Assembly: GCA_021802555.1 (NCBI GenBank)
Contig: JAJZRU010000001.1
Span: 186,001 to 250,000, forward strand
Direction: 5' to 3'
From: Pseudomonadota bacterium
GTDB taxonomy: Bacteria; Pseudomonadota; Gammaproteobacteria; Burkholderiales; Thiobacillaceae
DNA length: 64,000 nucleotides
In this document: positions 5,981 through 29,713 of the stretch, piece after piece
Position numbering within the stretch: the stretch's first letter is position 1
How the letters are laid out: the number at the start of each line of letters is the position of its first letter
Notes under the pieces: generated by a model
Told to the model about the DNA's origin: nothing
The model's database searches: none
What the model saw: the letters and a program-made list of their open reading frames with translations, nothing else
Translations under genes and position numbers: made by a program

Positions 5981-6019
5981 ATGATTTTCCTTGGCGGAGG
6001 CGCTTTTCGCCTTCGCCGC

Positions 6020-6092
6020 GGCCGAGGAGCGTTGCGAGGCTTTTGCCCCAGGCTCGGCCAGCCCGCGTTGCGGGCCTTGCAACGGCGCTCGC
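6020..6092 (+). promoter_or_regulatory. S-adenosylhomocysteine (SAH) riboswitch
   Basis: The leader of ahcY carries the conserved blocks of the SAH aptamer: CGAGGAGCGTTGC, then CAGGCTCGG, then TTGCAACGGCGCTC. The pairing fits. GAGC and TTGC (6027-6030 and 6032-6035) pair with GCAA and GCTC (6079-6082 and 6087-6090) to form P1. GGCCGAG (6020-6026) pairs with CTCGGCC (6053-6059) as the pseudoknot. GCCCGC-GTT-GCGGGC (6061-6075) is an extra hairpin. SAH riboswitches turn on SAH hydrolase when the toxic by-product SAH accumulates. No T-run terminator follows, so control is probably at translation. The ahcY ribosome-binding site (GAGGAGG) lies about 30 nt downstream. Confidence 0.95.
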
Positions 6093-6130
6093 CTGACTTT
6101 TATGTGTCTACAGACAGAGAGGAGGGTGTG

Positions 6131-26244: not shown

Positions 26245-28212
<1,968 letters not shown>

Positions 28213-28287: not shown

Positions 28288-28315
28288 TTGAGAAAAGCTG
28301 CTGCGGCAGAATAAT
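28288..28315 (+). promoter_or_regulatory. Probable promoter of the intron-bearing tRNA gene
   Basis: TTGAGA (28288-28293), a 16-bp spacer and AATAAT (28310-28315) lie 18 bp before the mature 5' end of the tRNA. This gives a transcript start about 10 nt upstream of the tRNA, a normal distance for RNase P processing. Confidence 0.55.
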
Positions 28316-28333: not shown

Positions 28334-28664
28334 GGGCCTCTAGCTCATGCTTGGTTAGAGCAGCGGACTTGAGGGAAGAAGCCTAAACGCATGGCGCGCA
28401 TGGCGGATTCCGATGGGTTGCCCCGAGGCAAGTTCACTCTGCCTCGGGGTAGAACTTCTCAAACTCGGTGAAAGCTAACGCGGGCGGCAACCCGCCAGGC
28501 CGATACCGAGCGAAGCCTCCTCATGAGGAGGAACGTGTAGAGACTCGACGGGAAGGCCGTAAAGGCAAGATAGAGTCCAGACCACAAACCCGAAAGGGGC
28601 GGCGAAAGCCGTAGTGGTAAGCATAATCCGTTGGTGCTGGGTTCGACTCCCAGGGGGCCCACCA
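28334..28664 (+). tRNA. tRNA with anticodon CAT, probably tRNA-Ile2, split by a group I intron
   Basis: The exons are 28334-28369 and 28622-28664. Joined, they form a standard cloverleaf. The acceptor stem is GGGCCTC with GGGGCCC (one T-G pair). The D stem is GCTC/GAGC, and the anticodon stem is GCGGA/TCCGT with loop CT-CAT-AA. The T arm is CTGGG-TTCGACT-CCCAG, and CCA is encoded at 28661-28664. The anticodon CAT and the overall likeness to Escherichia coli Ile2 point to the isoleucine tRNA for AUA, whose C34 becomes lysidine by TilS. An elongator Met tRNA is the alternative. The intron separates U33 from C34, so the RNA cannot work until it is spliced. It lies 121 bp after rpoD. Confidence 0.92.
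28370..28621 (+). ncRNA. Group I self-splicing intron (252 nt) in the tRNA anticodon loop
   Basis: The whole core can be traced. The guide sequence ATG-GGTT (28413-28419) pairs with the 3' exon CAT (P10) and with 5' exon GACT ending in the U-G pair (P1). P2 is CCCCGAGGCA/TGCCTCGGGG. P3 is CTTCTC (28455-28460) with GGGAAG (28550-28555). J3/4 is AAA. P4 is CTCGGT (28464-28469) with ACCGAG (28505-28510). P5a is GCGGG/CCCGC, P6 is CCTCCT-CATG-AGGAGG, and P7 is GACTC (28542-28546) with GAGTC (28573-28577). P8 is GCC/GGC and J8/7 is AAGATA. P9 is ACCAC/GTGGT with two GAAA-capped hairpins. The last base is G. The segment GTGTAGAGACT around P7 recalls the Azoarcus tRNA intron. It encodes no homing endonuclease. 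Confidence 0.93.
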
Positions 28665-28873
28665 AAAAAACCGCCGGCCGCCCGCGTCCTGGTGCAGTGA
28701 CGCCGGAGTTTCGGAGCCCGGCCCAATGGGGCGCCGGGTGTGTTTATCGATTTCGTCCGGCGCGGGAAGCGGGCTGACGAAAGCGCCAATGAACCGATTG
28801 CGGCCTGCTCCGAGCGCAGCAGGGAATCCCCCCGCGGGTCCTTTGCCTCGATGGTGCCGGACGCTGTCCGGCC

Positions 28874-29329
28874 TCAGGGGCGTATGTAAGACCACCCTCG
28901 CTGCTGCAGATCGATGATGCGGACCACGCCGCCGGGCACCACGACTACGCCGTCGATCAGTTTGGGCAGATGCCCGGTCCGGCGCTCGATACCCAACATG
29001 GTGACGTGGCAGGCGCTGAAACGCACGCCTTGCGCTTCCAGGCTTTGCACGCGCTCCGGCATTTTGCTTTCTCCGGTCAGTATGCTCAACCCGGGGCCGT
29101 AGGCGACGACCTCGATCTTGACGTTGTCCATGCCCAGCAGCTGCTGCAGGTTGGAAGCATTGTTCAGCGCGAGATTTTGCACCTCGGGATCGGCGCTGCT
29201 GACTTGTATGACGACCTTGTGCCCGGGGTCGAGGGCGCCAGTTTCCGCCGCGCTGGCGTGACATGGGGCGCCGAGGGCGATCAAGAATAATGCCAAGCCG
29301 CCGAATGACTGAAGTGGTTTGTTCTTCAT
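28874..29329 (-). CDS. Exported DsrE/F-like protein
   Basis: This 151-residue protein has a signal peptide (about 1-28, ending HASA) and a DsrE/DsrF-like domain. The domain runs from HKVVIQVSSADPEVQNLALNNASNL to the C-terminus, with Cys107 in RFSACHVT at the place of the sulfur-binding cysteine in that family. DsrE-type proteins bind or pass on sulfane sulfur, usually in the cytoplasm; exported members are of unknown role. GAGGAG precedes the ATG. It is the third gene of a unit with the CuA protein and the metallophosphoesterase, 12 bp after the former. Confidence 0.85.
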   Translation of the reverse strand: MKNKPLQSFGGLALFLIALGAPCHASAAETGALDPGHKVVIQVSSADPEVQNLALNNASNLQQLLGMDNVKIEVVAYGPGLSILTGESKMPERVQSLEAQGVRFSACHVTMLGIERRTGHLPKLIDGVVVVPGGVVRIIDLQQRGWSYIRP

Positions 29330-29341
29330 CTTCGTTTCTCC

Positions 29342-29713
29342 TCAATCGACGACGATGATCTCGCCGGTCATGTTCTGATGCCCGCTGCCGCAAAAATTGT
29401 CGCAGTGGAAGGGAAATGTGCCGGTTTTTTGCGGCAAGATGTGCACGCGTGCGGTTTGCCCGGGCATGACGTCGGCACGGATACCCAGCCCGGGCGCATT
29501 AAATCCATGCAGGCGATCCAGCGAGATAAGCTCCAGCACCACCGGCACGCCTTTCTTCAAGGTGATCACCTGCGGCGTGTACTTGAATTTCCTGGCCGTA
29601 ACGGGGATCACCCGCGGCGCTCCGTCGGCCATGGAGAACGTGCCCCAGCAAGCCGCAAGCGTTGCCACGAGCAGGGCGGCGACTATGAAGCCTTTGTGTG
29701 CCGTCGGATGCAT
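29342..29713 (-). CDS. Membrane-anchored single-domain CuA cupredoxin
   Basis: The 123-residue protein has one N-terminal membrane segment (8-24) and a cupredoxin domain. It carries the full CuA ligand set of cytochrome oxidase subunit II: His69 (RLHGFNAP), Cys104, Cys108, His112 and Met115 in CDNFCGSGHQNM. The Glu of the usual CxExC is Asn106 here; that residue binds copper only through its backbone. It is not part of an oxidase operon. It lies 4 bp after the metallophosphoesterase gene and just before the DsrE-like gene, so an electron-transfer or copper-handling role with them is likely. The partner is unknown. Confidence 0.88.
   Translation of the reverse strand: MHPTAHKGFIVAALLVATLAACWGTFSMADGAPRVIPVTARKFKYTPQVITLKKGVPVVLELISLDRLHGFNAPGLGIRADVMPGQTARVHILPQKTGTFPFHCDNFCGSGHQNMTGEIIVVD

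Follow-up and report, generated by a model that had tools for sequence, protein, structure and literature searches.

A group I intron between U33 and C34 of a bacterial tRNA-Ile2(CAU) gene: boundaries, guide sequence and relatives

Introduction

How is a tRNA with the anticodon CAU obtained from a gene whose anticodon loop is interrupted, which tRNA is it, and what interrupts it? These questions are raised by positions 28334-28664 of a 64,000-nt stretch of bacterial DNA, here called the window, from the draft assembly G000. All coordinates are positions within the window and refer to the plus strand unless stated. A sequence-only reading had proposed that a group I intron interrupts the anticodon loop of a CAT tRNA, a proposal now supported by the match of a dedicated covariance model.

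A genome with such a gene appears to lack an essential tRNA under default annotation. The authors of tRNAscan-SE 2.0 reported 36 genomes without apparent fMet or Ile2 tRNA owing to group I introns, and tracked down by hand introns in the tRNA-Ile2 genes of Acidovorax and Burkholderia (PMC8450103, available in part). The host gene is the same as in the window, and the intron-bearing gene described here is, as far as the available part of that article goes, a further case of an already known kind. Of lasting use are the exact insertion site, the guide sequence, a working covariance model and what looks like a second lineage; with the first three, annotators could locate such genes.

Gene structure and boundaries

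The region 28334-28664 is confirmed as a real tRNA gene split by a group I intron of 252 nt. The 5' exon, up to U33, spans 28334-28369, the intron 28370-28621 and the 3' exon, from C34 to CCA, 28622-28664. When the intron was removed and the exons joined, ARAGORN returned a complete cloverleaf with the anticodon CAT, as a tRNA finder had been expected to do; the earlier description of this cloverleaf as perfect was slightly generous, since there is one T-G pair in the acceptor stem and one G-T pair in the anticodon stem. In a homology search, 91 of 149 related genomes matched some part of the locus, and in intronless genomes such as G012, G006 and G010 the two exons lie edge to edge at query 70|323, which corresponds to 28369|28622 in the window. 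This fixes the intron as exactly 28370-28621, between U33 and C34 (site B below, as opposed to site A, after CAT), and the coordinates first proposed for gene and intron were correct.

Other splice points, after CUU and after GC, would produce a UAU anticodon able to read AUA without lysidine, and the loop CUU+AUAA also closes to seven letters. This switched register was rejected and is given next to no credence: it would leave a terminal C while every row ending in CATAATCC, among the matches listed, has G before CAT; five of 54 relatives carry C at intron position 1, which would restore CAU; and in the intronless relatives both exons are matched without a gap, CT running straight into CATAA. 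The junction adopted is that between U33 and C34, with the terminal (omega) G at 28621 and the 3' splice site after it, as indicated by the sequence and by the relatives.

The default ARAGORN scan of the window reported no tRNA, in agreement with the expectation that standard finders overlook the gene. With introns allowed on the unspliced DNA the same gene was recovered in a wrong register and named Ser(TGA), and Rfam at gathering cut-offs reported nothing at the tRNA gene.

Immediately upstream lies an ORF (26245-28212, identified also by tblastn against the loci) which from its sequence we take to be rpoD, encoding sigma-70. A consensus scan placed a promoter-like TTGAGA-16-AATAAT at 28288-28315, 18 nt upstream of the tRNA; it agrees with the consensus at 10 of 12 positions, with 0.1 such sites expected in shuffles, a resemblance that is no evidence of function. 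The intron is too short to encode a homing endonuclease, and the two mechanical minus-strand ORFs that overlap it (28475-28789 and 28521-29393) are taken as chance. Elsewhere in the window, Rfam detected an SAH riboswitch at 6018-6097 (51.9 bits).

Host tRNA and AUA decoding

The host gene is tRNA-Ile2(CAU), the reader of the isoleucine codon AUA. It has the CAU anticodon, paired ends of the elongator type and, as nearest annotated relatives, tRNA-Ile genes; when the joined tRNA was compared with E. coli, all eight rows listed were annotated as tRNA-Ile. The CAT tRNA is accordingly tRNA-Ile2 and not tRNA-Met.

The assembly gave 40 tRNA matches, 39 of them named by ARAGORN, and two of the 39 have a CAT anticodon; these are by our reading one elongator and one initiator tRNA-Met. 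Neither the tRNA scan nor the homology search found another match to tRNA-Ile2 in G000, a draft of 48 contigs from which a second copy could be missed. tRNA-Lys, tRNA-Ile(GAT) and tRNA-Ala(TGC) are also absent among the 39 named tRNAs, likely through assembly gaps. The enzyme TilS makes lysidine on tRNA-Ile2, and its gene, tilS, is present in the genome (167.6 bits, cut-off 93.6). In ten ORFs of the window ATA accounts for 14 of 173 isoleucine codons and 14 of all 3,561 codons.

The rarity of AUA, the 48-contig state of the draft and the fact that the case is known from sequence alone lend something to the view that this gene is a decayed silent copy and that AUA is read by another tRNA. The second intact copy on which that view had been made to depend was not found in the draft, tilS is kept, the core, exons and splice signals are intact, and none of the 13 site-B genomes described below matches the pattern of an intact gene, so that decay is considered very improbable. 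The gene is treated as the only tRNA-Ile2(CAU) gene found in the assembly; very probably, a group I intron of the short tRNA type separates its U33 from C34 and is spliced out by means of a GGGUU guide.

Intron structure

A covariance model, R1, was built from 51 relatives, leaving out L001, L002 and L121, that is, without the window sequence, its nearest relative or the outlier L121. Run against the window, it matched the intron at 161.7 bits (E 1.5e-45, the E-values of this tool being rough) and gave no further match in the window up to E = 1. The search with the Rfam group I family that had been suggested was less productive: RF00028 (Intron_gpI) scored 17.1 bits on the intron, below its cut-off of 50. 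This model passes the cut-off in one of nine other loci with such introns, so the low score seems to reflect how general the model is, and the intron is filed under group I by its structure.

For the structural alignment, 64 site-B matches yielded 54 distinct introns, the window's included; three whose locus lacked a 5' exon were left out. A structure of 60 pairs was drawn by hand on the window's own sequence, which biases the slid control in its favour. Over the 54 introns 93.7% of cells pair, against 79.2% in shuffled and at most 46.6% in slid controls; 38 of the 60 pairs vary on both sides, and covariation reaches 0.416 versus 0.152 in shuffles. The minimum free energy of the intron alone gave z = -3.51, and its centroid fold contains P2, P4, P5, P6, P7, P8 and P9.

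Pair counts over the 54 introns and R1 both describe a pseudoknotted P3-P7 core with P4, P5, P6, P8 and P9. P3 (28455-28460 with 28550-28555) is paired in 99-100% of cells, with five of its six pairs changed on both sides somewhere, and encloses, within 28455-28555, P4 (28464-28469/28505-28510), P5 and P6 (28516-28521/28526-28531). Pair counts and sequence place P7, GACTC/GAGTC, at 28542-28546/28573-28577; inside it lie P8 (28556-28558/28564-28566) and J8/7, AAGATA (28567-28572). The P7, J8/7 and terminal G of the sequence-only reading were all recovered, at 28542-28577 and 28621. Pair counts and folding delimit P9 (28581-28585/28614-28618), which contains two hairpins capped by GAAA (28589-28598 and 28600-28611).

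At the 5' end the earlier assignment had to be changed. The hairpin nearest the 5' splice site had been called P2, but downstream of it, at 28415-28419, stands GGGUU, the one strongly conserved stretch found that can pair with the 5' exon; the hairpin is therefore an extension of P1, and P2 proper lies at 28421-28449. Residues G28416-U28419 of this internal guide sequence pair with exon positions 28366-28369 to form P1, with a U.G pair at the splice site. GGGTTG is kept in 53 of the 54 introns, the exception being L121. Among the pairs with the exon, U33.G59 occurs in 53 of 54 introns, C32-G in 52, A31-U in 53 and G30.U in 53, and the helix continues into the intron with Y1.G58 (54/54) and R2-Y57 (50/54). 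A P1 drawn instead from the first 20 letters of the intron (GG at 28373-28375) was discarded, this stretch being not conserved among relatives, unlike GGGUU.

Residues A28413-G28415 (AUG), which run from just before the guide into its first letter, can pair with the CAU of the 3' exon as P10. The exon letters were fixed by the search patterns, and P1 and P10 rest on conservation on the intron side and cannot covary. P10 fits 85.2% of cells, a value that exceeds no shuffle and comes with no covariation, its 3' exon side being fixed by selection.

The P1 extension (28374-28411), supported by pair counts and folding, has two helices, GGAA..UUCC and GCC..GGC, and the internal loop CCUAAA..CAUGG. 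Its helices pair in 45-81% of cells over the alignment, partly owing to poor alignment of the region. The weakest places of the whole structure are one pair of this extension (45.3%) and two pairs of P2 (54.6%); the three stretches of P2 are paired in 99.0, 54.6 and 92.2% of cells, the middle one lying where the alignment is poor. Docking of a tetraloop into a receptor in the P1 extension was considered and not retained: CCUAAR..YAYGG occurs in 23 of 54 extensions, and the exact 11-nt form in one.

Proposed splicing pathway

In the proposed fold of the primary transcript, GACU at the end of the 5' exon would be held by the guide GGGUU, the pair at the splice site being U33.G. A guanosine in the P7 site would cut after U33; the freed U33 would then attack after the terminal G, while the CAU of the 3' exon is held by the AUG of the guide (P10), and joining of the exons would yield a CUCAUAA anticodon loop. 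TilS may then convert C34 to lysidine-34, giving a tRNA that reads AUA. The sequences show the gene, its boundaries, the conserved fold and guide, the single copy in the draft and tilS; transcription, catalysis and modification after splicing are presumed.

A protein might assist splicing in the cell, the intron splicing inefficiently alone. P1 with the 5' exon is weak, with four pairs (one G-C, one A-U and two G.U), and it carries a long extension. Comparable short tRNA introns, such as those of Azoarcus and Anabaena, self-splice, however, and P3-P9 covary, so that dependence on a partner is considered unlikely. Self-splicing of the Azoarcus intron is also stated in the available part of PMC6274277.

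Comparison with known tRNA introns

A close known counterpart is the intron of the Azoarcus pre-tRNA-Ile(CAU), which shares with the window's the tRNA, the anticodon loop and the general core. The tag of the Azoarcus intron is the CAU anticodon (PMC6274277, available in part), which means that splicing there occurs after CAU (36/37). Compared by this description, the Azoarcus-type placement corresponds to site A, whereas the window's intron is, by the intronless relatives, at 33/34 and not after the anticodon. Among the matches listed, site-A rows are about 205-227 nt long, against 252 nt in the window, and are also found downstream of rpoD (22 of 57 rows), as are site-B rows (30 of 58 by tblastn, the window's included). 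In all four site-A rows viewed, the guide is GUG soon after the splice site, while the window's intron has GGGUU and a P1 extension; it thus lacks both the insertion after the anticodon and the GUG guide of the Azoarcus type.

The host of the cyanobacterial tRNA-fMet intron has the same CUCAUAA loop. Introns inserted after U34, one of them in a tRNA-Leu(UAA) of the same genome, share the general core, as shown by R1 matches, and fall on different tree branches from the window's.

Site-B introns of Burkholderia, Paraburkholderia and Paracidovorax fall in the tree group of the window's. The Acidovorax and Burkholderia introns of PMC8450103 are presumably of the same kind as site B. A literature search of limited reach, covering sources in part, returned no statement on the 33/34 insertion site, and no priority is claimed; in the main text of two articles on tilS, tRNA-Ile2 and B. 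cenocepacia material (PMC10128029 and PMC12514573) no word starts with 'intron'.

Distribution and inheritance

A pattern scan of the genomes of 84,980 species returned at least 120 stretches. Most of the matches listed belong to the two tRNA-Ile2 insertion sites, A after CAT and B after U33; others end in GAAAATCC and were read as tRNA-Leu introns, and some without a recognisable 5' exon were left out of the site assignment. Among the matches listed, site B occurs in Burkholderia, Paraburkholderia, Caballeronia, Aquitalea, Vogesella, Halotalea, Pseudomonas and others, and in two Acidobacteria bins. Similar introns before CATAACCC 3' exons (Met type) were found in none of 200 genomes searched with one strict pattern.

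When three strict patterns were applied to 300 genomes of the window's order, 13 carried an intron at site B and 4 at site A, 180 had an intact gene, and 103 matched none of the three. With these 13 genomes and the genera named above, such introns are not very rare. The intact tRNA-Ile2 pattern is found in none of the 13 site-B and none of the 4 site-A genomes; for 0 of 13 against 180 of 300 overall the hypergeometric P is 4.5e-6, with kinship ignored. The site-B pattern missed two known site-B genomes, G098 and G146, neither of which matches the intact pattern. When 249 genomes of the phylum were scanned to look past the order, 3 matched site B, namely the window's own and two others of its class; no genome from another class did.

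In a tree built from 120 intron cores, 5 changes are needed to account for the site labels, versus 49.7 in shuffles. A weakly supported branch (60/0) sets the 50 site-A rows to one side, and 54 of the 55 site-B rows group together (89/92); the remaining one, L121, has a very long branch and no GGGUU guide. The deepest branch has 64/81, from a bootstrap that had not settled. To judge from the sequences, the introns of the two sites seem to be separate lineages, with a base that is not strongly supported. By its insertion at 33/34, its GGGUU guide and its place in the common core-tree group, the window's intron belongs to site B.

The insertion at site B is three letters upstream of site A in the same seven-letter anticodon loop, and the guide AUGGGUU can be matched, letter by letter, with all of GACU|CAU, which would make the anticodon itself the target of the intron. 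A P1-extension domain stands between splice site and guide, while the four site-A rows viewed leave no room for one. With a single-copy host and lysidine presumably made only after splicing, AUA decoding in these bacteria would hang on a guanosine-dependent ribozyme and could be tuned by it. That site B is a second, separately evolved lineage with these properties is put forward tentatively, as a possibility with rather less than even chances. Site-B introns would be natural group I ribozymes at another point of the anticodon loop that also houses site A, which allows a direct comparison of two positions within one tRNA.

The identity of the introns follows that of RpoD weakly (Spearman 0.28 over 28 loci; 12 of 1000 permutations as high). 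The intron of L003, from another family, is 84% identical to the window's, with RpoD at 91%, whereas that of L005, from the window's own family, is 72% identical, with RpoD at 92%. On these figures neither clean vertical inheritance nor clean horizontal spread is favoured.

In L068 (reverse of 550-1300) and L069 (reverse of 880-1900), the gene that carries the intron is preceded by extra 5' tRNA-Ile2 halves in tandem, spaced by a few hundred bases; the arrangement looks like integration of elements into the anticodon loop, with a new 5' half brought along. L080, from a bin labelled Akkermansia muciniphila, has a site-A intron nested among Limnohabitans rows in the tree; the bin is probably mislabelled or contaminated.

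Further tRNA introns

R1 shows just two introns in the genome G000. The second is a 243-nt group I intron in a tRNA-Leu(UAA) (L064, G000:C24, 685-1015, minus strand), and similar genes occur in G001 and G002. The list of bacterial host tRNAs in the sequence-only reading was too short: within the window's bacterial family, group I introns were also found in a tRNA-Ser(UGA) (L067, 456-761, minus strand, genome G045; R1 92.5 bits) and a tRNA-Thr(UGU) (L075, 632-915, genome G081; R1 118.1 bits), each by our reading inserted after U34.

A 595-kb sequence of an uncultured phage (LR756511.1; L205, 396-554) contains a group I intron core (R1 71.3 bits) with an HNH-like frame upstream and a putative tRNA-Leu 3' exon downstream; ARAGORN found no tRNA there. 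According to the available part of a 2014 review, phage introns were known in protein genes only (PMC3984707).

Among 72,556 plasmid records, 1,266 match some part of the query, and the best 20 all match the intron core (query 109-286). In the two records viewed, L203 (2440-2738, plasmid pCTX-M3) and L204 (2440-2737), the match is an unannotated intron-bearing tRNA, with R1 scores of 119.0 and 118.2 bits. ARAGORN names it 'Stop(tta)', and by our reading it is a tRNA-Leu(UAA); a predicted aac(3)-IId gene is found some 650 bases away.
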